From contig CAJXSK010000011.1 in NCBI GenBank assembly GCA_913061075.1, positions 1-63,207 on the forward strand: DNA of 63,207 bases, read 5' to 3'. The position numbers and the translations under genes are program-made. Positions 2,900 to 26,137 of this stretch are shown here, piece after piece (position 1 is the first letter of the stretch; every line of letters begins with the position of its first letter). The stretch is from an uncultured Piscirickettsiaceae bacterium (GTDB taxonomy: Bacteria > Pseudomonadota > Gammaproteobacteria > Methylococcales > Cycloclasticaceae). The notes under the pieces were generated by a model, which did not search any database, was not told the DNA's origin, and was given only the letters and a program-made list of their open reading frames with translations.

Positions 2900-3916
2900 A
2901 TGAGTGCGCTTCCATCCATAGTAAATACAAATAAGTTGATCGATAAGTTTGGTCGACAAGTGACATATGTGCGAATTTCTGTCACTGACAGATGCGATTT
3001 CCGCTGTGTTTATTGTATGAGTGAAGAAATGGAGTTTTTACCTCGTGAACAAGTGTTAACCTTAGAAGAAATTTCTACTTTATCGCGTGCATTTGTTGAA
3101 ATGGGTGTCACTAAAATTCGCATTACCGGTGGTGAGCCTCTAGTAAGAAAAGACGTTGTTGGCCTTATGGCAGAAATTGCTCAGTTGGATGGATTGGAAG
3201 AGCTTGTTATTACGACAAACGGTTCACAACTTGTAAAGTTGGCAGAGCCGCTTAAAAAAGCAGGTGTTAAGCGAATCAATATTAGTTTAGATAGTTTAGA
3301 TGCTGATAAATTTAAGAAGGTAACGCGAGTAGGTGATCTTGCTGTTGTCTTGCAAGGTATTCAAGCTGCTAAGAAGGCAGGCTTCGAAAAAATCAAATTA
3401 AACGCTGTGATTTTGAAGAACAGAAATCATGACGAAGTAAATGGTTTGGTTCAGTACGCAATGGAGCAAGGGCTTGATATTAGCTTTATTGAAGAAATGC
3501 CACTAGGCGCGATCGATAACCATTCGCGTGAAGAAGCCTATTACTCCAGTGATGAGATTAAGCGTGATATTGAAACGCAATTTGATTTATTGCCTAGTAC
3601 CAAAAACACAGGTGGCCCTGCACGTTATTACAGCGTCAATGGTTACGATAATTTGGTCGGATTTATTTCGCCGCACAGTCACAATTTTTGTGATACCTGC
3701 AACAGAGTTCGCGTAACAGCATCGGGCTTATTGTTGCTATGCTTAGGCCAAGAGCACTCTATGGATTTAAAGAGTATTTTACGAGCAAACCCTACAGATA
3801 TTAATAAAGTAAAACAGGCTCTAATAGAGTCTATGGAGATCAAGCCTAAAGGGCATGATTTTGATATTACTGAGCAACCTGTTATCTTTCGTCATATGAG
3901 CGTAACAGGTGGTTAA
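2900..3916 (+). CDS. moaA: GTP 3',8-cyclase (MoaA-type radical SAM)
   Basis: This 338-residue enzyme converts GTP to 3',8-cyclo-GTP, the first step of molybdopterin or tungstopterin synthesis. The radical-SAM cluster motif CxxxCxxC is C32, C36, C39, with the SAM-binding GGEP at 77-80. The C-terminal second cluster uses C264, C267 and C281. The protein ends in Gly-Gly, a tail conserved in MoaA and needed for catalysis in characterised members. As the first gene of the AOR cluster it is likely a dedicated copy serving the pterin cofactor of the downstream oxidoreductase. The ATG at 2900 is preceded by a weak AAAGGT; the nearest in-frame upstream TTG is followed at once by a stop, so this start is secure. 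Confidence 0.92.
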   Translation: MSALPSIVNTNKLIDKFGRQVTYVRISVTDRCDFRCVYCMSEEMEFLPREQVLTLEEISTLSRAFVEMGVTKIRITGGEPLVRKDVVGLMAEIAQLDGLEELVITTNGSQLVKLAEPLKKAGVKRINISLDSLDADKFKKVTRVGDLAVVLQGIQAAKKAGFEKIKLNAVILKNRNHDEVNGLVQYAMEQGLDISFIEEMPLGAIDNHSREEAYYSSDEIKRDIETQFDLLPSTKNTGGPARYYSVNGYDNLVGFISPHSHNFCDTCNRVRVTASGLLLLCLGQEHSMDLKSILRANPTDINKVKQALIESMEIKPKGHDFDITEQPVIFRHMSVTGG

Positions 3917-3963
3917 AGTTTTTTTGAACGTTTAATAATAAATAGAACCCAGAGGAGGGTGTT

Positions 3964-4431
3964 ATGCAGATGTCATTAGTAATAGATGCGAACAAATGTA
4001 CAGCTTGTTTGCAGTGTGAAATGGCTTGTTCTTATGAAGGTGAAGGTGTATTCAACCCGACTAAGTCAAGAATTAAAATTTTTCCATTCCATGAAGAAGG
4101 TATTTTCGTACCTTATACATGTACTCAATGTGATGAAGCGTGGTGTATGCATGCTTGTCCTGTCGAGGCTATTGTTTTAAACAAAACAACAGGCGCAAAA
4201 GAAATTGTTAACGATTTATGCGTAGGTTGTAAAGTTTGTACGATTGCTTGCCCATTCGGCACAGTTAACTACAACGCAGACAGCGGTAAAGTGATCAAAT
4301 GCGACCTCTGTGGCGGCGATCCTGAATGTGCTAAAGCATGCCCAACAGATGCAATTACCTACCAAGATGCAAATTGGACAGGCTACGACAAAATGAAAGA
4401 TTACGCTGCGAAAGCAATGCCAGCGAAATAG
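3964..4431 (+). CDS. Four-cluster ferredoxin subunit of aldehyde oxidoreductase (AorA-like)
   Basis: This 155-residue protein has 16 cysteines in four clusters of four (the first is C12, C15, C18 and C22; the others include CTQC near 53-56, CVGCKVC near 87-94 and CDLC near 113-116), enough for four [4Fe-4S] clusters. It resembles the HycB/AorA electron-transfer subunits. Being directly upstream of the AOR catalytic gene, it probably passes electrons between the tungstopterin site and the FAD subunit, as AorA does in Aromatoleum AOR. AGGAGG at 3953-3958 gives a 5-base spacing to the ATG at 3964; a second in-frame ATG lies at 3970. Confidence 0.9.
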   Translation: MQMSLVIDANKCTACLQCEMACSYEGEGVFNPTKSRIKIFPFHEEGIFVPYTCTQCDEAWCMHACPVEAIVLNKTTGAKEIVNDLCVGCKVCTIACPFGTVNYNADSGKVIKCDLCGGDPECAKACPTDAITYQDANWTGYDKMKDYAAKAMPAK

Positions 4432-4470
4432 CATCTTGTCCGTATAAAAAATAAAATTTGGAGATAGACT

Positions 4471-6330
4471 ATGTCTTGGACAAAAAAAGTATTAAGAATT
4501 AATTTAACAGCAGGAACCTGTTCCCCAGAACCATTAAATATGGAATGGGTTGAGCAGTTTCTTGGTCAACGTGGTTTGGCCACAAAATATCTAACGGAGG
4601 AAGTTCCACCTACAACGGACGCTCTTTCACCTGAAAACACAATGTATATGATCACGGGTCCTTTAACAGGCACCATGGCATCAACAGCGGGTCGTTATTC
4701 AGTTGTTACTAAAAGCCCATTAACTGGAGCAGTCGCTTGTTCTAATTCAGGTGGTTTCTTTGGTAACGAAATGAAATGTGCAGGTTGGGATATGGTTATC
4801 CTAGAAGGGAAGTCACCTTCACCTGTTTACATCAGTATTAATGATGATAAAGCTGAAATTTTACCTGCCGACGAAATTTGGGGTAAATCAGTATGGGAAG
4901 CCGACGAATGGTTACATACGAAACATCAAGACCCACAGCTACGTGTAGCTGCGATTGGTGTTTCTGGTGAGAAAGGCGTGCTGTATTCTGCCATTATGAA
5001 TGATTTGCATCGCGCGGCTGGCCGCTCTGGTGTTGGAACAGTCATGGGTTCTAAAAATGTAAAAGCCGTTGTTATTCGTGGTAGCAAAGGTGTTGATGTT
5101 CAAGACCCTAAAGCATTCTTTGACGCAACAAATGCAGGCAAGAAAATTTTGGCTGAGAACCCTGTAACAGGCGAAGGTTTACCTGCATTGGGTACACAAG
5201 TGTTAATGAACGTTATTAACGAAATGGGCGCAATGCCAACAAATAACTGGAAAGATTCAGTATTTGAAGGCGCATCAAAAATTTCTGGTGAAGCGATGCT
5301 TGAACCTCGTGATAGCGATGGCAAAGCGAACTTAACTCGAAATGGAGCTTGTTTTGCGTGCACAATTGCATGCCAACGTGTCTCAACTATCGACCCAGAA
5401 CATTTCAGTGTGCAAAATAGAGATGACTTACATCCAAGTTATCACGCCAATTCAGGTGGCTTAGAATATGAAGCAGCTTGGGCATTAGGCAGTGACACTG
5501 GGGTTGATGACATTGATGCATTAACATATGCTCAGTTTGTTTGTAACGAGCAAGGTCTAGATCCGATTTCATTGGGTTCAACAATTGCTGCAGCGATGGA
5601 AATGTACGAAGAAGGGTTTATCACCAAAGAAGATACGGATGGTATTGAGCTTAACTTCGGTAATGCTGAAGCGATGATCAAGTGTACTGAACTGGTTGCT
5701 CTAGGTGAAGGTTTTGGTGCTGAACTAGGTCAAGGATCTTCACGTTTTTGTGCCAAGCATGGGCACCCAGAACTTTCAATGACTGTTCGTGGTCAAGAAT
5801 TTCCAGCTTACGATCCACGTGGCATTCAAGGTATGGGTCTTGGTTTCGCTACATCAAACCGTGGTGCATGTCACCTACGTGGTTATACAGTGGCTTCGGA
5901 AGTATTGGGCATTCCAATTAAAACTGATCCATTAGAAACAGAAGGCAAAGCAGGATTACAAATTGCCTTCCAAAATGCTACCGCTGCATTTGATTCTGCT
6001 GGTATTTGTATCTTTACATCATTTGCATGGTCACTTGAAGATGTAGCACCTCAGTTAAATGCTGCTTGTGAAGGCGAATGGACACCAGAACGTTTAGGCG
6101 AAATTGGTGAGCGTATTTGGAACCTTGAGCGTTTATATAATGACGCGGCTGGCCAAGGTGCTTCGGCGGATAAATTGCCACCAAGGTTAACCGAAGAAGC
6201 TGTTAAAACAGGCCCTGCGGCAGGTAAGGTTAATGGGTTGGCAACTATGCTTCCTGAATACTATGCTGAACGTGGTTGGTCACCTGAAGGTGATGTTACA
6301 GCTGATACTAAAGCGCGTTTAGGGCTTTAG
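4471..6330 (+). CDS. aor: Aldehyde:ferredoxin oxidoreductase, catalytic tungstopterin subunit
   Basis: This 619-residue enzyme is of the AOR family, which interconverts aldehydes and carboxylic acids at a bis-pterin tungsten (or molybdenum) site. The [4Fe-4S] ligands are visible as C294, C297, C301 and the distal C513, which follows D508 as in the Pyrococcus enzyme. A pterin-binding segment GFATSNRGACHLRGY lies at about 458-472, and conserved acids at E332/E334. Length is normal. It follows the ferredoxin gene by 39 bases with GGAG before the ATG. The subunit set (ferredoxin, catalytic, FAD) matches the bacterial Aor(AB)nC type. Metal identity and substrate cannot be told from sequence. Confidence 0.93.
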   Translation: MSWTKKVLRINLTAGTCSPEPLNMEWVEQFLGQRGLATKYLTEEVPPTTDALSPENTMYMITGPLTGTMASTAGRYSVVTKSPLTGAVACSNSGGFFGNEMKCAGWDMVILEGKSPSPVYISINDDKAEILPADEIWGKSVWEADEWLHTKHQDPQLRVAAIGVSGEKGVLYSAIMNDLHRAAGRSGVGTVMGSKNVKAVVIRGSKGVDVQDPKAFFDATNAGKKILAENPVTGEGLPALGTQVLMNVINEMGAMPTNNWKDSVFEGASKISGEAMLEPRDSDGKANLTRNGACFACTIACQRVSTIDPEHFSVQNRDDLHPSYHANSGGLEYEAAWALGSDTGVDDIDALTYAQFVCNEQGLDPISLGSTIAAAMEMYEEGFITKEDTDGIELNFGNAEAMIKCTELVALGEGFGAELGQGSSRFCAKHGHPELSMTVRGQEFPAYDPRGIQGMGLGFATSNRGACHLRGYTVASEVLGIPIKTDPLETEGKAGLQIAFQNATAAFDSAGICIFTSFAWSLEDVAPQLNAACEGEWTPERLGEIGERIWNLERLYNDAAGQGASADKLPPRLTEEAVKTGPAAGKVNGLATMLPEYYAERGWSPEGDVTADTKARLGL

Positions 6331-6359
6331 TATAGACAGATTGTAATATTGACCTGAAT

Positions 6360-6391
6360 AAGGGCGAGTCGTTTTCGATTCGCCCTTTTTT
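6360..6391 (+). terminator. Rho-independent terminator after the AOR catalytic gene
   Basis: A 12-base stem (6360-6371 AAGGGCGAGTCG with 6376-6387 CGATTCGCCCTT, one G-T pair), a TTTT loop and a run of six T (6386-6391) form a strong intrinsic terminator. It lies inside the cluster, between the catalytic and FAD subunit genes, so it probably lowers expression of the downstream genes relative to the first three. Confidence 0.88.
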
Positions 6392-6441
6392 AGTGGTTTA
6401 ATAATGTTGTTATTTACTATTAGTCATTCAGGGGAAGGTTT

Positions 6442-7710
6442 ATGAAGCATGTCATTATTGGTGCTGGCCCATCGGGTATTGTCGCCGCAGAACATATACG
6501 AAAATTTGATCAATCAGCAACAATCGTAATTATTGGTGATGAACCGGAAGCACCTTATTCAAGAATGGCTATACCCTATCACTTAATTGGGAATATTGAA
6601 GAAGAGGGAACATACCTTCGGCATAAACCCAATCATTTTAATGATTTAGATATCCAATTAATTAATGCTCGAGTGGATAAAATAGATTCGGTAGATAAAA
6701 TGCTTCAACTGAGCACAGGTGTGACTGAGTCATACGACAAATTATTGATTGCATCAGGTTCTAGGCCAGTTTCCCCACCGATTCCAGGCATAGGCGAACC
6801 AGGTGTTCATTCATGCTGGACGCTTGAAGATGCAGGAGCTATTGCAGCTCTTGCGAAACCGGGCGCAAAAGTTATTCAAATTGGCGCAGGCTTTATTGCC
6901 TGTATTATTTTAGAAGCACTTGCGCGACGAGATGTGGACTTAACAGTCGTTGAAATGGAAGATCGTATGGTGCCGCGTATGATGGATAGTATTGCGGGTA
7001 ATATGATTAAAGATTGGTGTCTACATAAGAACATTGATGTATTCACCAATGGTCAAGTAACTGAGATACAGAAAGCGGAAGGTAATCATACATTTAAGGT
7101 CAGTGTTAAAACGCCAGATGGGGTAACTCAGCTGGATGCTGATTTAGTTATTACTGCCACCGGTGTTCGACCTTGTGCAGATTTCTTAGAAGGCTCTGGC
7201 ATTACAGTAGATGACGGTATTATTGTTGATAAAAACATGCAAACTAACGTGCCTGATATTTATGCGTCTGGCGATGTTGCACAAGGTAAGGATTTTTGCA
7301 CAGGTGAATATGCGGTTCAGGCTATTCAGCCAACTGCAACTGAACATGGCCTTATAGCAGCGCAAAATATGGTTGGTTTAGAAGGCGCGGAGTGTGGTGG
7401 TACAATTAATATGAACGTATTGGATACGATGGGGCTAATATCGTGTTCTTTTGGCTTGTGGCAAGGCGTTGAAGGTGGTGAAAGTTGCCAGCTAGTCGAA
7501 AAAGACAAATGGCGTTATTTGAATTTACAGTTTGATGATGATGTGTTGATTGGTGCGACAGGTATTGGATATACACAACACGTTGGAATAATGAGAGGTT
7601 TAATTCAGTCAGAGATACCTTTGGGAAAGTGGAAGAATAAATTGTTAGAAAACCCACTTCAGCTAATGGAAGCTTACTTAGCTTGCACACAATCAGCAGC
7701 GATACAATAA
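6442..7710 (+). CDS. FAD/NAD-dependent oxidoreductase subunit (AorC-like)
   Basis: This 422-residue protein is of the pyridine nucleotide-disulfide oxidoreductase fold. An FAD-binding GAGPSG is at residues 8-13, a second nucleotide-binding IGAGFIA near 148-154, the ATGVRP segment near 240, and the FAD-closing IYASGDVA near 275. There is no redox-active CxxxxC motif, so it is of the NADH:ferredoxin or nitrite reductase type. In this position it should link the AOR core to NAD(H), as AorC does. It is separated from the catalytic gene by a terminator and has its own GGGGAAGG ribosome binding site. Confidence 0.87.
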   Translation: MKHVIIGAGPSGIVAAEHIRKFDQSATIVIIGDEPEAPYSRMAIPYHLIGNIEEEGTYLRHKPNHFNDLDIQLINARVDKIDSVDKMLQLSTGVTESYDKLLIASGSRPVSPPIPGIGEPGVHSCWTLEDAGAIAALAKPGAKVIQIGAGFIACIILEALARRDVDLTVVEMEDRMVPRMMDSIAGNMIKDWCLHKNIDVFTNGQVTEIQKAEGNHTFKVSVKTPDGVTQLDADLVITATGVRPCADFLEGSGITVDDGIIVDKNMQTNVPDIYASGDVAQGKDFCTGEYAVQAIQPTATEHGLIAAQNMVGLEGAECGGTINMNVLDTMGLISCSFGLWQGVEGGESCQLVEKDKWRYLNLQFDDDVLIGATGIGYTQHVGIMRGLIQSEIPLGKWKNKLLENPLQLMEAYLACTQSAAIQ

Positions 7711-18247: not shown

Positions 18248-18309
18248 GGCGCAAAAATTCCAAGAACTAGCTGAATGAACATTTCAACATTAGCACAAGG
18301 AGAACCTTG

Positions 18310-19272
18310 ATGGATTACACCAGAGAAACAGCAAAGCAATGGGCAGGTGAAAATATTAGAGGCTTATTTATGTGCCCTATTTCTCCCATGAATGATGACT
18401 TTACGTTTGATGAAGTAGGTATTCGTGAAAATATCGAAGCGTTTATCGACATGGGTGTAGATGGACTGGTTGTGGGTGGTTTTATTGCTGAGTGTTGGAA
18501 TGCTACGTTGACAGAATGGTACCGTTATCACGAGGTAGTTGCGGACGCAGTAAAAGGTCGTGTGCCTTTGTTTTCAATATTACTAGACCCTAGCGCATAT
18601 CAAACCATTGAAAAAATGAAACGCCTGGAAGAGTTGGGTTATGACGGTGCAGAAGTGATCAACCCCGTTGTGCAATTAAAAAGCGATAACGAAGTGTATG
18701 ACTGGTTTAAGTTTATTACGGATAATTCTGACTTGGCTGTGGTGTTGTATAGAACGCCGGTATCAGGCAAAGTGTTGGGTTGGGATTTAATGCGGCGTTT
18801 GGCTGACCTTGAAACAGTAGTCGGTACGAAACAAGGCGTTATGAACCGCGTGGAAACGTTGAAATTAAGACGTATTATCCGCAACGATTTTATTGTTGCA
18901 GACCCGTTTGAAGCGGTATTTTGTGATGATTTGCGAAAAGGAGGCCAAACAGTATTTGGTGAATTGTCTTACATTTTGTACGGTAAAAAACGGCATATAG
19001 TTAAAGATTATATGGCCTTGTCAGCCGCAGGTAAGTGGGAAGAAGCATACCAAGTTAGTGAACAGTTGAATGACATTCGAGAGTTCTATAACGAAGTGTT
19101 TATTTGGGATGTGGTACAAACATTTACCTATGCCAGTGCACTTGCTAGCATGAAAGCGTGGTTCGAAGAAATTGGCTTAAAAGCAGGCCCTATTCGCCCG
19201 CCAGTGCGACAATGTACGCCAGAATTAAGGCAAACCATTCACACCAGACTAAAAGAGTTAGGCGTTAGTTAA
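18310..19272 (+). CDS. DapA-superfamily aldolase/synthase (possible hydratase-aldolase)
   Basis: This 320-residue TIM-barrel class I aldolase is of the DHDPS/NAL family. K174 (VVGTKQGV) sits where the Schiff-base lysine belongs and Y147 (VVLYRTP) where the catalytic tyrosine is expected. The C-terminal LKAGPIRPP recalls NahE-type hydratase-aldolases of aromatic degradation, which cleave off pyruvate and an aldehyde. The catabolic setting beside an aldehyde dehydrogenase supports that over lysine synthesis, though this is inference. The ATG at 18310 has AAGGAG seven bases upstream and is preferred over the TTG at 18307. Confidence 0.82.
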   Translation: MDYTRETAKQWAGENIRGLFMCPISPMNDDFTFDEVGIRENIEAFIDMGVDGLVVGGFIAECWNATLTEWYRYHEVVADAVKGRVPLFSILLDPSAYQTIEKMKRLEELGYDGAEVINPVVQLKSDNEVYDWFKFITDNSDLAVVLYRTPVSGKVLGWDLMRRLADLETVVGTKQGVMNRVETLKLRRIIRNDFIVADPFEAVFCDDLRKGGQTVFGELSYILYGKKRHIVKDYMALSAAGKWEEAYQVSEQLNDIREFYNEVFIWDVVQTFTYASALASMKAWFEEIGLKAGPIRPPVRQCTPELRQTIHTRLKELGVS

Positions 19273-19273
19273 C

Positions 19274-20302
19274 ATGATGGAAGAACAATTACATATCTGT
19301 ATACATGGCGCCGGTGGTTTGGGTTCTGTCATCGGTGGTTATCTTGCAAAATCGGGCCATAAGGTCACACTGATTAGTAGGCAAGCGCATGCTGATGCCG
19401 TTAATAATGATGGTCTGAATATTTTTGGTCGGCTAGGTGACATGGTGATTAAAGATAACTTAACGGCCGTCACTCAACCGGTGCTGGTAGCTGGCGATAT
19501 TGATTATTATATTTTATTAACTAAAGCTAAAGATGCAGCAGGTGCTATTGCTGATGCTGCGGTTATATCTGACCGAATAAAATGCGCACTGACGATGCAA
19601 AATGGTGTTGGTAAAGAATCGTTATTGATTGATGCGTTTGGCAAAGAGCGTGTAATTGGTGGGTCGATTATAGAAGGCGCTACGTTGATTGAACCAGGAC
19701 GAGTCAATAATCATGTTACGGCGCCAACAACTGCTTATTTTGGTGAGTTAGGCGGCGGTAGCACGCAACGAACAGAGGTATTGGCAGAGGTGTTTACTAA
19801 CGCTAATTTAAATGCTAAATCAGTTGATGATATAGACAATGTTTTATGGGAAAAGGTGGTGCAAGTATCGGGGGCCTCTTCATGGTCTGCGAGTACATTA
19901 GGATCCATTCCTATGTTAGATTATTGGGATGGCATTTCAGTAAAAGAAGGCGCTGAGCATTATGTTACCATTGCGCAAGAGCTGATTGATGTGTACAAGG
20001 CAATGGGTTACACGCCACAAGATTATTACGCGCCGTTTTCATTTTTAAAAATGATTGATGAATCATCCTTTGAAAAAGCCGTGCGAGCCTGCGTTGATAT
20101 GGGTGTAACGATGGGGCCGAAAACGCCGGGCGTAAGAACATCTATGCACGAAGACTTGGTGAATGGTAAAGAAACAGAAGCGGACACGTTGTTCATGCCT
20201 TTAGTTGAACAAGCTAAAAAGTACAATATTGCGATACCGACGTTTTTGGGCGCGTATCGGGTGATAAAAACGATTGATAGTAATTTAAATAAAAGGAATT
20301 AA
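19274..20302 (+). CDS. Ketopantoate reductase-like (PanE/ApbA family) oxidoreductase
   Basis: This 342-residue protein has an N-terminal NAD(P)-binding GAGGLGSVIGGYL near 9-21, a family LLTKAKD near 81 and an ApbA C-terminal helical domain with ALTMQNGVGKE in between. Family members reduce 2-dehydropantoate or other 2-keto acids. It begins two bases after the DapA-family stop and precedes the epoxide hydrolase-like gene by two bases, so it works in the same pathway; a catabolic 2-oxo acid or hydroxy acid substrate is more likely than pantoate synthesis. Confidence 0.82.
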   Translation: MMEEQLHICIHGAGGLGSVIGGYLAKSGHKVTLISRQAHADAVNNDGLNIFGRLGDMVIKDNLTAVTQPVLVAGDIDYYILLTKAKDAAGAIADAAVISDRIKCALTMQNGVGKESLLIDAFGKERVIGGSIIEGATLIEPGRVNNHVTAPTTAYFGELGGGSTQRTEVLAEVFTNANLNAKSVDDIDNVLWEKVVQVSGASSWSASTLGSIPMLDYWDGISVKEGAEHYVTIAQELIDVYKAMGYTPQDYYAPFSFLKMIDESSFEKAVRACVDMGVTMGPKTPGVRTSMHEDLVNGKETEADTLFMPLVEQAKKYNIAIPTFLGAYRVIKTIDSNLNKRN

Positions 20303-20304
20303 AA

Positions 20305-20697
20305 ATGACAATGCAATCACAAAAAGACACGGTTAGAGAATTTTGCTCTGCTTGGGATAATTTAGACGTAGATAAAATCATGTCGTTAATGAGTGACGAC
20401 GCGGTGTATCACAATATGCCAATAGCGCCATTAAAAGGGCAGCAAGACATAGCCGGCTTTATTGGTGGTTTTTTAGAATTAGCAGATTCGTGTCAATTTA
20501 AAATATTAAACCTAGTGGCTGACGAGCACCGAGTGGTAACGGAACGTGTTGATACCTTCGGATTGAAAGATGGCTCTACTATTGATGCGTTACCCGTATT
20601 GGGGATATTTGAATTTGATAATAACGGTAAGATTTGTTGTTGGCGTGAATATTGGGATTTACAAGATTGGGTGGCTAGAGGCGGGCCGGCTCTTTAA
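20305..20697 (+). CDS. Limonene-1,2-epoxide hydrolase-like protein (SnoaL fold)
   Basis: This 130-residue protein has a cone-shaped alpha+beta fold of the SnoaL/NTF2 superfamily. The residues used by limonene-1,2-epoxide hydrolase to open an epoxide all have counterparts: Y35 and N37 in YHNMP, R81 and D83 in ERVDTF, and D118 in REYWD. That makes an epoxide hydrolase more likely than a plain SnoaL isomerase. It ends the three-gene unit after the aldolase and reductase and has AAAGGAA before the ATG. Confidence 0.78.
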   Translation: MTMQSQKDTVREFCSAWDNLDVDKIMSLMSDDAVYHNMPIAPLKGQQDIAGFIGGFLELADSCQFKILNLVADEHRVVTERVDTFGLKDGSTIDALPVLGIFEFDNNGKICCWREYWDLQDWVARGGPAL

Positions 20698-20700
20698 ACT

Positions 20701-21399
20701 TTAAATAACGGAGTCCTCTATTGTTTGCATAAGGCTCTTGATGATGAGGGCTGAATCGTTGAATAATTCACTTGAATTGCTTGGTGATTGAGGGGCGTTA
20801 TAGTAGGGGCTTTTTTGCCAACTATCACGGCTTGCGTCATCAAATAACGTAGCAAGTGGCAACGTTATTTCTGGGTGGAATTGGAGGGCGATAACGCGAT
20901 TGTTGTAGATGAACCCTTGGTTCTCACACGCTTCGCTTGAAGCAATTCTTATAGCGTTGTTTGGTATGTCAAATGTTTCGCTGTGTGAGTGAAAGAGCAA
21001 CAGGTCTTGCTTAAAGACATTGGCCAGTAACGTATTTTTAATTTCGTTAGATGGCGAAATAGTGTGCCAGCCAAATTCGCTCACAGGGTTTTGTTTAACG
21101 TCGGCACCTAAGGCATTGGCAATTAGCTGCGCACCAAGGCAAATGCCCAACACCGTTTTTCCGGCGTCAATGACCTGTCTAATAAATACTTTTTCAGCTA
21201 TTAAATAAGGGTGCTCGGCTTCATCGTTGGCGCTCATTGGGCCGCCCATAATAATTAGCCAATCGATGTTTTCAACGTCTGGAAAGGTATGGTCTTCAAA
21301 AACGTAAATATGATTTATATCATGAAGGCTATCATCAAGGTAGGTACTAATACCGTGTTTGATTGATAAATGAACGTGGTGTAAGATGTGTATTTTCAC
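20701..21399 (-). CDS. Class I glutamine amidotransferase-like hydrolase
   Basis: This 232-residue protein is a stand-alone GATase1 domain with catalytic C87 (GICLGAQL), H175 and E177 (QFHPEI). No synthetase domain is attached. It is divergent from a Rieske dioxygenase and close to a glutamine-synthetase-like gene, the set found in aniline dioxygenase clusters, where the amidotransferase-like protein (TdnT/AtdA2) hydrolyses gamma-glutamylanilide. A comparable gamma-glutamyl amide hydrolase role is the best guess. Confidence 0.82.
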   Translation of the reverse strand: MKIHILHHVHLSIKHGISTYLDDSLHDINHIYVFEDHTFPDVENIDWLIIMGGPMSANDEAEHPYLIAEKVFIRQVIDAGKTVLGICLGAQLIANALGADVKQNPVSEFGWHTISPSNEIKNTLLANVFKQDLLLFHSHSETFDIPNNAIRIASSEACENQGFIYNNRVIALQFHPEITLPLATLFDDASRDSWQKSPYYNAPQSPSNSSELFNDSALIIKSLMQTIEDSVI

Positions 21400-21448
21400 T
21401 TTGATGTGATGGTGGCTAAAAACATGAAACTAAAAGCTAATTTAACAG

Positions 21449-21477
21449 TTGATATATTAAATTCATACTAGCATAAT
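21449..21477 (+). promoter_or_regulatory. Probable sigma-70 promoter of the dioxygenase genes
   Basis: TTGATA (21449-21454) and CATAAT (21472-21477) are separated by 17 bases, upstream of the Rieske alpha gene. Transcription would begin near 21484, shortly before the proposed ATT start at 21497. Confidence 0.5.
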
Positions 21478-21496
21478 AAGAGTCTAATATTAGGCC

Positions 21497-22819
21497 ATTA
21501 AACACAAAAAAAATAATATAAAAGAATTAGATAACTTAGTTCAGGCAGGACGTGTTCACCGTACGGTTTATACGGATGAAAATATTTTTTCTGTTGAGCA
21601 ACAAAAAGTGTTCTCTGAAACATGGGTGTATTTAGCACACGCGAGTGAAATCAAAGAACCGAATAGTTTTGTTGCACGGAAGATGGGGCAACGGTCAGTT
21701 ATTGTCACGCGTGATAAAGAGAATAAAATTCACGCGTTACTCAATCGCTGTACACATAGAGGCGCTACTGTTTGTCGGGAAAAGAAAGGTGATAAAACAC
21801 CTTTTTTTACGTGCCCATATCACGGATGGACTTTTCGGAATACGGGCGAATGCGCAGCCATTCCGCATCAAGATGCCTATGGGGAAGGTCTTGATAAGCA
21901 ACAGTTTAATTTAAAGAAAGTCCCTTTTGTATCGGAATACCGTGGTTTTATTTTTGCCACATTGAATCCTGAGAAAGGTAGAAAGGGGATTAAAGAACAT
22001 CTTAAGTCTGCGGCTGGCCGACTTGACGAATGGATTGACCACAATGGTGGCGATCATCGGGCTATTCGTATTAGTGGCGCACAACAATATACGGTTCATG
22101 CTAATTGGAAGTGCTTATACGATAACGCAGGTGATGGCTATCATCCTGAGTTTTCACACCAATCGTTACTTAAAATGACGCAAGAGCGTTATGGTTCTGG
22201 TATGGATTTGGACTACTTTTCCGGTGGAATTGATTCAACACCCATGTATTCGCAAAGCTTAGGTAATGGCCATTCTTTTTTAGATCAACGCCCCTGTATG
22301 TATGAAAATTCTGCCTTCGAGCGGCAGCGCCCCCAGCCAGGTAGAGAGGCCATTGTTGAACAATTAACTAAAGAGGTGGGTGAGCAAAAAGCCAAAGCGT
22401 ATTTTGAAATGGCCACGGGTGCAGGAATGAATTTAAATATATTCCCAAACTTGTTGTTTATTGGGAATCAAATGCAAGTCATTACGCCTTTATCCGTTGG
22501 TTTGTCGGATATGACGTGGTATTCAACGACAGTAGATAATGTGCCCACAGTAGTGAATACACTTCGAATACGCACTCAAGAAGACTTTACCGCGTTTGGT
22601 GAGCCGGATGACACCGCTAATTTTGAGGCTTGTTTTAAAGGGATGCAGGAACGTGAGATTGATTGGATTGATATCAGTAGACACCTTGGTAGGGCAGAAG
22701 ACAGCACGGATGACAGTGGTGTTGTAACGTCCGTTATTTCCTCTGATATTCATATGCGAACTTACTATGAAGAGTGGAAAAAATTGATGCAATCCAATGA
22801 TGCATCACGGTTAGGTTGA
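21497..22819 (+). CDS. Rieske aromatic ring-hydroxylating dioxygenase, alpha subunit
   Basis: This catalytic subunit has a Rieske [2Fe-2S] site (C85, H87, C106, H109 in the long form) and a mononuclear iron site in DGYHPEFSH (D213, H216, H221). The family N-terminal segment (LVQAGRVHRTVYTDENIF) is encoded upstream of the first usual start codon, the GTG at 21608, which would remove it. The frame is open back to 21494 with no ATG, GTG or TTG. The best start is ATT at 21497, giving 440 residues; an ATG-to-ATT change is possible. The gene is followed by beta-subunit and GS-like genes. No reductase or ferredoxin for it is in the window. Confidence 0.88.
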   Translation: MKHKKNNIKELDNLVQAGRVHRTVYTDENIFSVEQQKVFSETWVYLAHASEIKEPNSFVARKMGQRSVIVTRDKENKIHALLNRCTHRGATVCREKKGDKTPFFTCPYHGWTFRNTGECAAIPHQDAYGEGLDKQQFNLKKVPFVSEYRGFIFATLNPEKGRKGIKEHLKSAAGRLDEWIDHNGGDHRAIRISGAQQYTVHANWKCLYDNAGDGYHPEFSHQSLLKMTQERYGSGMDLDYFSGGIDSTPMYSQSLGNGHSFLDQRPCMYENSAFERQRPQPGREAIVEQLTKEVGEQKAKAYFEMATGAGMNLNIFPNLLFIGNQMQVITPLSVGLSDMTWYSTTVDNVPTVVNTLRIRTQEDFTAFGEPDDTANFEACFKGMQEREIDWIDISRHLGRAEDSTDDSGVVTSVISSDIHMRTYYEEWKKLMQSNDASRLG

Positions 22820-22824
22820 ACGAT

Positions 22825-23427
22825 ATGGTAGATACAAAAAATTCAGCAGGGCATCAAGATTCAACGTATTTAAATGAGGCGTATTACGATCAATTAATGC
22901 ACTTAAATGAAGATTGGCAGTTAGATGGCCCAGTGCCGGCAATCAATCAGCCGTCATTAGCAGATAAGCTAGCCTGTGAAGCACTTGTGTTTGCTGAGGC
23001 ACGTTTAGCTGATGACTTACGTTTGGAACAGTGGTTGGACTGTTATAGCGACAAAAGCATTTATTGGATACCGGCGAACTACCCTGCGGGTGATCCGCGG
23101 CAGGAAATTACCTTAGAGTTTCATGATAAACGACGATTAGAAGATCGCGTGGCGCGTATACGGACGGGGGTTGCCTATTCCATGTTGCCGGTTATTCGCA
23201 CACGGCACGTGTTAGGCAACATTGAATATTGGCAAGGTGAAACCAACGAAGTACGTGCTAGAACCAGCTTTATAATAGATGCTCTATTTAATGAAAAACA
23301 CAGAACTCTGTCGGGTTGGATAGGGTATTCATTCGTGAAAAATGATGGCGACTGGAAAATTTCTGTAAAACAAGTCAACTTAATAGATGCGGATTGTTTG
23401 CAGGAAAACAATACGTTTTTCTTATAG
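22825..23427 (+). CDS. Ring-hydroxylating dioxygenase, beta subunit
   Basis: This 200-residue protein has the SnoaL-like fold of dioxygenase small subunits, with the family segments LACEALVFAEARLAD, WLDCYSDKSIYWIP and RTRHVLGNI. It structures the alpha3beta3 complex and has no catalytic metal. The ATG at 22825 is 5 bases after the alpha stop, with TTAGGT upstream; a TTG at 22816 overlapping the alpha stop is the alternative. Translation is likely coupled to alpha. Confidence 0.88.
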   Translation: MVDTKNSAGHQDSTYLNEAYYDQLMHLNEDWQLDGPVPAINQPSLADKLACEALVFAEARLADDLRLEQWLDCYSDKSIYWIPANYPAGDPRQEITLEFHDKRRLEDRVARIRTGVAYSMLPVIRTRHVLGNIEYWQGETNEVRARTSFIIDALFNEKHRTLSGWIGYSFVKNDGDWKISVKQVNLIDADCLQENNTFFL

Positions 23428-23477
23428 AGAGATTCTGAACATAAGGCGCTTATAAAAAAACCAAAATGGGGTAGAGC

Positions 23478-24950
23478 ATGAGTAAGCAAAACATAGTTTC
23501 ATCTATTGGTTTAGATGGTTTTATTGCAAAGAATAAGTTATGGAATAAAGAACAAAAACAAGCGGCAAAAGCGCTTATTGAACGTTTAAAAAACGAGGAC
23601 ATTACTTACGTTCGAGTGACGTATTGCGACCAACACGGATTAACGCGCGGAAAAATGCTGCCTGTTAAACAGTTCGTGTCAGTGTTAAAAAATGGATTAG
23701 CCAGTACACACGCTATTTTTGCAATGGACTCGGCTAATAATATTTTCTTGCCGGTGTTTAGTGAAGATGGCGGTTTTGGTAATGATGAAATGGGCGGCGC
23801 AGGCGATATGATTATGGTGCCAGACCCGGCAACATTCCGGCTGCTTCCGTGGGCAGAAAAAACAGGCTGGGTATTATCCGATTTGTACCTAAAATCAGGC
23901 GCGGTCATGCCCTTTTCTCCAAGGGCCATATTGGCTACCCAGTTGAAAAAACTACATGCAAAAGGGTTTGAACTGTTGATTGGCCTTGAAGTGGAGTTTC
24001 ATGTTTTTAAAATTGATGATCCACAATTAACTATGGAAGCGTCAACTCAACCGGCTGAGCCACCCAGCGTATCGCCATTGGCACACGCGTATCAATATCA
24101 ATGTGAACAAAACTTGGACGAAGTGACACCATTGATGGAGTTGTTTCATCAGAATTTACAAGCTTTGGGCTTACCCATTCGAACACTTGAAGATGAGTGG
24201 GGCCCAGGCCAGTGTGAAATAACCATGGAGCCGCTACCAGCAATGCAAGCAGCAGACGCGATGGTGTTGATGCGTTCCACCTTAAAACAACTCGCACGCC
24301 GGCATGGCTACTTGGTTAGTTTTATGTGCAAGCCAGGGTTACCGAATGTGTATTCATCAGGTTGGCATTTACATCAATCGTTGGTTGATTTAAAAACGGG
24401 TGATAATGCGTTTGCGACAACAGATCAGAAACAATATTTATCCGAAGTAGGGCAACACTATGTCGCTGGGTTAATCGAACATGCTAGAGCGTGTACGGCA
24501 TTTTCTAACCCCACCATTAACGGCTATAAACGAATGAATGCGAATGCGCTGGCACCTAATAGAGCAGTTTGGTCAATTGATAATAAAGCGGCGTGTTTAA
24601 GGCTAGCAAATGCGGGAGACCGATCTGTGCATATTGAGAATCGCTCTGGTGAGCCAGCGGCAAATCCTTATCTATTTTTCACTTCACAGTTAGCAGCCGG
24701 TATGGAAGGCATTGAAAGCAAACGTGATCCAGGCCCCCCACTAAGTGACCCTTATGCTCAAACGGATAAAACAGCGTTACCAGCGAGTTTAATGGAAGGC
24801 ATTACAGCATTGGACAAGTCTGAACTGTTAAGAAAAGAGATGGGTGAACCCTTTGTGAATTATTATTTAATGCTTAAACGGCATGAAATTCATCGTTTCT
24901 TATCCACAGTGACGGATTGGGAACATAAAGAATATTTTGAACGCTATTAA
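23478..24950 (+). CDS. Glutamine synthetase-like ligase (gamma-glutamyl amide synthetase type)
   Basis: This 490-residue protein has the full GS fold: N-terminal beta-grasp (YVRVTYCDQHGLTRGK), metal-binding EVEFHVF and EDEWGPGQCEIT, and SGWHLHQSL. It is closer to the GlnA-like enzymes that ligate glutamate to amines (gamma-glutamylanilide synthase TdnQ/AtdA1, IpuC, polyamine PuuA) than to ammonia-assimilating GlnA. Immediately after the dioxygenase subunits and near a GATase gene, it probably activates an amine substrate as its gamma-glutamyl amide. The amine cannot be named from sequence. Confidence 0.88.
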   Translation: MSKQNIVSSIGLDGFIAKNKLWNKEQKQAAKALIERLKNEDITYVRVTYCDQHGLTRGKMLPVKQFVSVLKNGLASTHAIFAMDSANNIFLPVFSEDGGFGNDEMGGAGDMIMVPDPATFRLLPWAEKTGWVLSDLYLKSGAVMPFSPRAILATQLKKLHAKGFELLIGLEVEFHVFKIDDPQLTMEASTQPAEPPSVSPLAHAYQYQCEQNLDEVTPLMELFHQNLQALGLPIRTLEDEWGPGQCEITMEPLPAMQAADAMVLMRSTLKQLARRHGYLVSFMCKPGLPNVYSSGWHLHQSLVDLKTGDNAFATTDQKQYLSEVGQHYVAGLIEHARACTAFSNPTINGYKRMNANALAPNRAVWSIDNKAACLRLANAGDRSVHIENRSGEPAANPYLFFTSQLAAGMEGIESKRDPGPPLSDPYAQTDKTALPASLMEGITALDKSELLRKEMGEPFVNYYLMLKRHEIHRFLSTVTDWEHKEYFERY

Positions 24951-24967
24951 TCAAAAAACGAAATAAC

Positions 24968-25582
24968 ATGAAAATTGATCCAAAAACCCAAGATAAGTTC
25001 TTTAACATTCTAAAGGCAGTGGTCATTCCAAGGCCTATAGCGTTCGTGTCATCACAGTCAAAAGACGGCGTGCTCAATTTAGCACCATTCTCATTCTTCA
25101 ATGGTGTTTGTTACGACCCGCCGACCATTAGTGTGTCTATTGCTCGTTTTGCGGGTAATAAACCAAAAGATAGCTTGGTTAATATTGAAGAAACGGGTGA
25201 GTTTGTCGTGAATTTGGTCAATCAAGATATTGCGCAGGCAATGAATAAAACAGCCGCAGAATACCCTGCTGATGTTAACGAATTTGAAGTCGCAGGTCTA
25301 ACACCCACGGCATCTGAAATAGTGGCTGCGCCATGCGTGTTAGAATCACCAGTGAGTTTAGAGTGTAAATTAATACAAGTGGTACCAGTTAATGAGGGTT
25401 CGTCTAAAGAGTGTGGACTTATTATTGCTGAAGTCGTTTATTGCCATATAAACGATGATCTGTTTGATGGCCGTTATGTCGATATGAAAGGACTTGATGT
25501 GGTGGGGCGTTTAGGCGGCCACGAGTATTGCAAAGTGAACGACTTATTTGAGATGCGTTTGCCAATCTATAAAGAAGAGTAA
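24968..25582 (+). CDS. Flavin reductase-like, FMN-binding split-barrel protein
   Basis: This 204-residue protein of the DIM6/NTAB family shows VVIPRPIAFVSS, NLAPFSFFNGVCYDPPTIS and a C-terminal DVVGRLGGHEYCKVND. Members reduce free FMN or carry it in redox reactions. It follows the GS-like gene by 17 bases and so belongs to the dioxygenase unit. It is not the usual FAD/[2Fe-2S] reductase of Rieske dioxygenases, so whether it feeds electrons to that enzyme is open. Confidence 0.85.
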   Translation: MKIDPKTQDKFFNILKAVVIPRPIAFVSSQSKDGVLNLAPFSFFNGVCYDPPTISVSIARFAGNKPKDSLVNIEETGEFVVNLVNQDIAQAMNKTAAEYPADVNEFEVAGLTPTASEIVAAPCVLESPVSLECKLIQVVPVNEGSSKECGLIIAEVVYCHINDDLFDGRYVDMKGLDVVGRLGGHEYCKVNDLFEMRLPIYKEE

Positions 25583-25588
25583 AGCAAA

Positions 25589-26137
25589 TTAGCTTTTGTC
25601 ACCGGTATAGAATGTCGGATAAAGCCGCTTAACCTGTTCACCATTTGTATCCCACGCATGGCAACCATTAAGAAAGAACGGCCTTGGTTGAACATCTGAT
25701 TGTTTATTTTTGCTCATGCTCGACATGGTTTGAAATATGGTTGTGGTAGCAGGGCCCAGTAAATCAGCTAAATGTGTACACCCTTGCAGCCCGCCGACTA
25801 GTTTTTTAACGCGCATGGTCCAGCCAGCAGCAATTTTCTCACCAATCAATTTTTTAAATATCGGTGTAATATCAGGGCAACAAGCGAAAGGGGATTTATC
25901 GGTCACTGCGATGCAGTCGTGCACAACCAATTGGTCATCAACGGTAATGCGTATCCACATGTCATGTACGGGGTCGCCAGCTTCTACAGTACCTCGGTGG
26001 GCGCTTTCAAATGAATAAGTTTTAACGTCGGTAATATGCGCATCAACATCCCATAAACCATCGTTGCGTTTAAAACCGGTACAGGTGATTTGGCGTGTAT
26101 GGAGTTCTTTTCTTGCAGCGCTATCAGGTAATGGCAT
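25589..26137 (-). CDS. DUF2889 protein
   Basis: This 182-residue protein matches the DUF2889 family by its RKELHTRQITCTGFKR start, RDGxWDVDAHITDVK-like strand, a MWIRITVDD segment and the C-terminal GCTHLADLLGP. Function is unknown; members often lie in aromatic or other catabolic gene sets. It is convergent with the flavin reductase gene (6-base gap) and divergent from the copper ATPase across a large palindrome. Confidence 0.8.
   Translation of the reverse strand: MPLPDSAARKELHTRQITCTGFKRNDGLWDVDAHITDVKTYSFESAHRGTVEAGDPVHDMWIRITVDDQLVVHDCIAVTDKSPFACCPDITPIFKKLIGEKIAAGWTMRVKKLVGGLQGCTHLADLLGPATTTIFQTMSSMSKNKQSDVQPRPFFLNGCHAWDTNGEQVKRLYPTFYTGDKS

Follow-up and report, generated by a model that had tools for sequence, protein, structure and literature searches.

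What does a gene block that places a class I glutamine amidotransferase-like (GATase) gene beside genes for a two-subunit Rieske oxygenase and a glutamine synthetase-like (GS-like) protein do in its host, and where would its oxygenase obtain electrons? To address this, we analyzed a window of 63,207 nucleotides, i.e., the whole stretch of DNA presented, which makes up all of contig C11, one of the 20 contigs of a 2.26 Mb genome (G000). Three MAGs, two labeled Cycloclasticus and one labeled Piscirickettsiaceae, hold relatives of the window alpha protein at 86-88% identity, and because such relatives sit in Cycloclasticus MAGs, the window is assigned on protein similarity to Cycloclasticus, a marine degrader of hydrocarbons and oil. 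Our analysis indicates that the locus is probably a cassette of four genes for the catabolism of an aromatic amine, similar to the AtdA and TdnQTA1A2B systems and supplied with electrons by a host reductase of the FNR_N type. The features of the locus are:

18307..20697, + strand: genes (DHDPS-like, ApbA-like, SnoaL-like) that border the insertion site on its left, outside the cassette
20698..24967, no single strand: four-gene cassette, approximate extent, between the SnoaL and flavin reductase genes (empty site in L068 and L071)
20701..21399, - strand: class I GATase-like protein (Pfam GATase E 5.9e-20); divergent cassette member
21497..22819, + strand: Rieske oxygenase alpha subunit of the aniline-dioxygenase lineage (Pfam E 2.5e-22; trees, motifs)
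22816..23427, + strand: oxygenase beta subunit (Pfam Ring_hydroxyl_B E 3.5e-22; tree)
23478..24950, + strand: GS-like protein, predicted gamma-glutamyl aromatic amide synthetase (Pfam E 7.6e-87; 8wwu; trees; residues)
24968..25582, + strand: split-barrel flavin reductase (Pfam E 5.8e-28); right flank of the insertion site, outside the cassette

The Pfam E-values of all five proteins are far beyond chance. The GATase gene is transcribed divergently and lies outside the alpha-beta-GS operon, and the GC content of the cassette is 0.422, compared with 0.405 for the window. Scans for promoters (17 versus 12.1 in shuffled sequences, sd 3.0) and terminators (6 versus 5.0, sd 2.4) gave counts not clearly above the shuffles.

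First, we placed the oxygenase subunits. A search of 72,556 plasmid records showed that the alpha protein shares 45-51% identity with aniline-type alphas, including those of Delftia pNB8c and of Pseudomonas sp. JS3066, a 1-naphthylamine degrader (PMC11335346), and that identity drops to 34% for the next kin. In a tree of 26 rows, which included nine of the ten other alphas of the same genome (all except that on C12), the window alpha falls inside the aniline clade (support 100/99), beside the DcaA1/NpaA3 group (98/96) and apart from those nine. The beta tree agrees, grouping the beta subunit with proteobacterial aniline betas (98/96). The aniline-dioxygenase-like character that an earlier note on this DNA had proposed is thus borne out for both subunits, which stand beside the DcaA1/NpaA3 group in their respective trees; the alpha did not cluster with non-amine dioxygenases. 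In the alpha, both the Rieske and the two-histidine motifs are intact. Elsewhere in this genome, the first 15 kb of a separate stretch (C6, 1-20511; L076, L077) hold five Rieske alpha genes, with a single reductase gene and a single Rieske ferredoxin gene behind them.

The start of the alpha gene deserves attention. Its frame is open back to 21494, and the first ordinary start codon is the GTG at 21608 (ORF listing 21608-22819). Since four of the five relatives compared (L018, L020, L021 and L023; the fifth, L019, is unreadable in the frame shown) have an ATG at or adjacent to the aligned place where the window reads AAT ATA, the true start must, by this alignment, lie upstream of GTG 21608. 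The only possible starts there are ATT 21497 and ATA 21518, codons that are usable as starts under translation table 11; the gene begins at one of these, or else its start was lost or misassembled. This missing ATG is also what would be expected if the cassette were decaying in this genome, with the start codon lost and little oxygenase made. We consider such decay unlikely, as the alpha frame is open throughout with its iron motifs intact, ATT or ATA may serve as a start, an assembly error is possible, and pN is low relative to pS. Between the window and four other carriers, alpha and GS-like pN is 0.07-0.09 and pS, which is near-saturated, is 0.66-0.82; such values show a function long kept in the lineage, and not function in this particular genome.

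Second, we analyzed the GS-like protein, which is 41-49% identical to the proteins of aniline-type and alpha-only loci used for comparison, and 32% identical to IpuC. Its best match of solved structure is 8wwu (E 1.7e-120, 406 bits; runner-up 215 bits), a homology that settles its predicted fold. This entry corresponds to NpaA1, the characterized 1-naphthylamine gamma-glutamyl synthetase of Pseudomonas (PMC11335346). In a tree of 28 rows, the protein groups with aromatic-amine enzymes and is separated from PuuA, IpuC and GlnA (96/91), as a deep-branching lineage with no firm position inside that clade. Clustering with the polyamine enzyme PuuA, the result that the earlier note had named as contradicting its proposal, was therefore not what the tree returned. 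The metal, ATP and glutamate residues are kept, and D50 and E327 of GlnA are replaced by E and L, as in NpaA1. The protein thus shows the pattern by which GoaS enzymes are recognized, in which GS metal and substrate residues are kept and ammonia-site residues are replaced (PMC11335346). It also retains E357, the flap residue printed as Glu357 in the same paper, and aligns to NpaA1 without large gaps over the region in which the N-terminal "15th motif" loop of GoaS would fall.

Of the amine-pocket residues of NpaA1, the protein retains E232, E234, W235 and F86; in place of V201 it has a tyrosine, the residue found in AtdA1 at this position (PMC11335346), and A69, I70, G71, P72, F75 and M81 are replaced by T, H, A, I, M and I. 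The pocket is therefore compatible with an aromatic amine, without naming which one. A new amine, as the earlier note suggested, may be the substrate: some pocket positions match NpaA1 or AtdA1 and others do not. It could be argued from the pocket loop, which differs from NpaA1 at 68-72, 75 and 81, and from the depth of a GS-like lineage whose place within the clade is not fixed by the trees, that the cassette acts on an amine of another kind, for example an aliphatic or amino-acid-like one, with the oxygenase attacking its glutamylated product. We regard this as improbable, given that alpha and beta both lie inside the aniline lineage, that E232, E234, W235 and F86 are conserved, and that the tree excludes the GS-like protein as kin of IpuC and PuuA.

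Loci in which an alpha-only Rieske oxygenase gene lies beside a GS-like gene were also encountered (L009, L010, L011, L013 and L097), and two of these have nitroreductase and DUF4863 genes close by; as a guess, these may be glutamylation routes for aminobenzoate-like compounds. A further locus, on a plasmid of Nostoc sp. UHCC 0926 (L024, 7799-11479), carries aniline-type beta, alpha and GS-like genes adjoined by one recombinase-like and one transposase-like gene (inspected by eye), and the 21 kb fetched around it gave no hit with the reductase queries.

The third component, the GATase, seems to have a different affinity. It shares 28-35% identity, over partial lengths, with GATases of aniline-type loci, versus 39-48% with generic GATases from nine further gammaproteobacteria (with its own genome, 10 of 143 genomes), and no other cassette gene was found in the short flanks examined around these nine. 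In the tree it groups with the generic GATases (98/96), but long branches meet there, and a joint clade with the aniline-locus GATases is not rejected (AU p 0.24). The protein is also the fastest evolving of the four, with 58-60% identity between the window and four carriers, compared with 86-88% for alpha, 85-87% for the GS-like protein and 74-80% for beta. This GATase looks unlike AtdA2/DcaT and is likely no ortholog of it, although kinship is compatible with the tree test.

Next, the extent of the unit was defined by its distribution. The alpha gene is present in 6 of 61 genomes, corresponding to 6 of 18 in the genus and 0 of 43 in the rest of the order; a sample of the phylum yielded it in 2 of 398 genomes, one of them the window. 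A GS-like search of 21 genomes recovered six, identical to the six alpha carriers. Every carrier has its GATase, alpha, beta and GS-like genes side by side in the same orientation, although in G006 a contig break within the GS-like gene divides the cassette (L038, L041). The six carriers hold the cassette at four insertion sites:

SnoaL/flavin reductase: the window and G010 (L021)
FGGY kinase (glpK-like)/MFS: G007 (L020) and G011 (L023)
glutaredoxin/kinase: G006 (L038, L041), inferred across the contig break
short-chain dehydrogenase/enoyl-CoA hydratase: G002 (L037)

Three of these sites were also seen empty: the SnoaL-flavin reductase site in G007 (L068) and G011 (L071), with the two genes 32 bp apart, the glutaredoxin-kinase site in G000 (L124) and G012 (L123), and the hydratase-dehydrogenase site in G011 (L071); no empty version of the kinase/MFS site was seen. 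Because occupied and empty sites differ by the block, the unit consists of four genes, the divergent GATase, alpha, beta and GS-like genes, and does not include the flavin reductase or the SnoaL, ApbA and DHDPS genes, which form the insertion site. No transposase-like genes were seen by eye among the cassette neighbors, and only short repeats were found in 20400-25300.

The earlier note had joined the flavin reductase to the set. It is instead a host gene that 12 of the 18 genus genomes carry (one as a fragment), and it follows SnoaL directly at the empty site. A five-gene unit in which it is the functional partner of the dioxygenase is very improbable: close same-strand placement 17 bp (window) or 37 bp (L021) behind the GS-like gene speaks for it, whereas the reductase adjoins the cassette in only two genomes, directly follows SnoaL in G007 and G011, where the cassette is elsewhere, and has no [2Fe-2S] domain by Pfam; the empty sites speak strongly against this partnership. 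The DHDPS-like gene is present in 9 of 18 genomes of the genus, and a role as hydratase-aldolase of a PAH pathway was considered and set aside, its best solved matches being N-acetylneuraminate lyase and DapA at no more than 63 bits. Behind the flavin reductase lies a DUF2889 protein gene (25589-26137); a second copy (L081, 5197-5751) sits on C12, in the neighborhood of a Rieske alpha gene that is either broken or split.

We also considered a composite origin of the cassette, with the GS-like gene derived from a lineage other than that of alpha and beta. AU tests rejected a grouping of the GS-like protein with six proteobacterial aniline GS proteins (p 3.2e-6 and 5.4e-6), and the alpha data rejected a clade of eight aniline rows from which Cycloclasticus is excluded (p 0.0017). 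Once the two actinobacterial rows were removed, the GS-like grouping was no longer rejected (p 0.127). A placement of the Cycloclasticus alpha outside all aniline rows is not rejected either (p 0.37; 0.128 without the actinobacterial rows), and the composite origin was withdrawn. Without those rows the alpha still rejects the six plus Shinella grouping without Cycloclasticus (p 0.014). Some disagreement between the alpha and GS-like trees may thus persist, and we do not claim a separate recruitment of the GS-like gene.

To identify a source of electrons, we searched for the usual reductase of these systems, a DcaB-type FNR_C reductase with a C-terminal Fer2 domain. The window, the cassettes of the other carriers and the six carrier genomes yielded none, and the missing reductase reported in the earlier note accordingly holds for the window and for its genome as a whole. 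In this genome, five places match the NAD-binding family, four encoding proteins with an N-terminal Fer2 domain and one without Fer2, and DcaB finds at best 31% identity over the FAD-NAD part and 39% over the Fer2 part; in the other carriers the best FAD-NAD matches reach 30-32%, with Fer2 N-terminal where checked. By comparison, 8 of 10 fetched stretches with aniline-type loci from elsewhere contain a reductase match (L012, L025-L029, L100 and L105), the other two being L022, which ends just behind beta, and the Nostoc stretch. Six of the seven Cycloclasticus stretches gave no match to the reductase queries; the window gave one GR-type-like match (6451-7281), in an aldehyde-ferredoxin-oxidoreductase gene group. 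This region (2900-7710) is a row of radical SAM molybdenum-cofactor-synthesis-like, 4Fe-4S ferredoxin, aldehyde ferredoxin oxidoreductase and pyridine-nucleotide-disulphide reductase genes, and aor has been discussed for alkane use by Cycloclasticus in a passage of PMC12510462.

Since no FNR_C reductase was found in the carriers, the electrons would have to come from a host reductase. Aniline systems are described as FNR_C types, whereas PhnA1 of Cycloclasticus uses a ferredoxin and an FNR_N reductase (PMC2358900), and ferredoxin and reductase components are described as often shared (PMC11099662). Two candidates were found. A Fer2-FAD-NAD reductase on C3 (G000:C3:127628-128707) is of a type present in five of the six carriers and was not seen in G006 (58% complete); it adjoins a fatty-acid-desaturase-family gene and may serve that enzyme. 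A PhnA4-like reductase (G000:C6:19133-20155), followed by a Rieske ferredoxin, is present in G000, G006 and G007 (88-100%) and was not found by direct search in G002, G010 and G011 (genomes 73-83% complete), a distribution that weakened its candidacy as the general donor. Based on their presence in five versus three of the six carriers, we infer that the C3-type reductase ranks first and the PhnA4-like second.

Taken together, we favor the four-gene aromatic-amine cassette fed by a host reductase. By analogy with the glutamylation-then-dioxygenation schemes described for AtdA and NpaA (PMC11335346; PMC4539516), the GS-like enzyme would join L-glutamate to an aromatic amine in an ATP-dependent reaction, the alpha-beta Rieske oxygenase would dihydroxylate the gamma-glutamyl-arylamide to yield a catechol, and the divergent GATase-like protein would hydrolyze excess conjugate and keep its level low. 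Electrons would be delivered by an FNR_N reductase of the host, encoded elsewhere and carrying its [2Fe-2S] domain at the N-terminus. The host could make use of the catechol, because beside a phenol-hydroxylase-family gene on contig C2 lie genes for a catechol-2,3-dioxygenase-like protein and for an aldehyde dehydrogenase, the latter truncated where the stretch ends. Against this reading stand the absence of an ordinary alpha start codon, a GATase not clearly of the AtdA2 kind and the changes relative to the NpaA1 pocket; moreover, a PhnA4-like reductase present in only three of six carriers cannot be the general donor if all cassettes work.

The AtdA1-A5, TdnQTA1A2B and DcaQ-type systems for aniline and chloroaniline likewise combine GS-like, GATase-like and Rieske alpha-beta genes, with alpha and beta of the same lineage. 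The Cycloclasticus cassette differs from them in that it has no FNR_C reductase, its GATase is divergent with its nearest kin elsewhere, its GS-like protein is deep-branching, no regulator gene lies between its genes, and it moves between chromosomal sites. NpaA1-A5 of Pseudomonas sp. JS3066 (PMC11335346), 41% (GS-like), 47% (alpha) and 38% (beta) identical to the cassette proteins, shares its predicted logic of glutamylation followed by dioxygenation; unlike the cassette, it has its own reductase and is followed by naphthalene lower-pathway genes, and the synthetase pockets differ at residues 70, 72, 75, 81 and 201. The alpha-only loci of Methylobacterium, Caballeronia, Polaromonas and Novosphingobium SA1 encode GS-like proteins up to 49% identical, with an alpha of another class and no beta, and most have a separate 2Fe-2S protein and an FAD reductase nearby. 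PhnA and the other PAH oxygenases of Cycloclasticus belong to a lineage other than that of the cassette alpha, and we know of no GS-like partner for them. Like the cassette oxygenase they are alpha-beta enzymes; their ferredoxin and reductase genes lie elsewhere, and these components are described as often shared (PMC11099662, PMC2358900).

We found no description of an aniline-type gene set in Cycloclasticus in the open literature searched, subscription papers being mostly outside its scope, and the word "aniline" is absent from the main text of two Cycloclasticus genome papers (PMC12510462, PMC11099662). A more far-reaching scenario, which we put forward tentatively and consider less probable than not, is that an FNR_C reductase was lost and the oxygenase rewired to an FNR_N host reductase, within a transposase-free four-gene cassette that recruited a non-AtdA2 GATase and gives marine Cycloclasticus access to aromatic amines of petroleum beyond those that the known AtdA and NpaA enzymes cover. 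If the cassette works, a main group of marine PAH degraders could also attack aromatic amines, and the locus would offer testable cases both of an oxygenase that switched its electron donor and of catabolic genes that change their chromosomal site as a block although no mobile element is visible.
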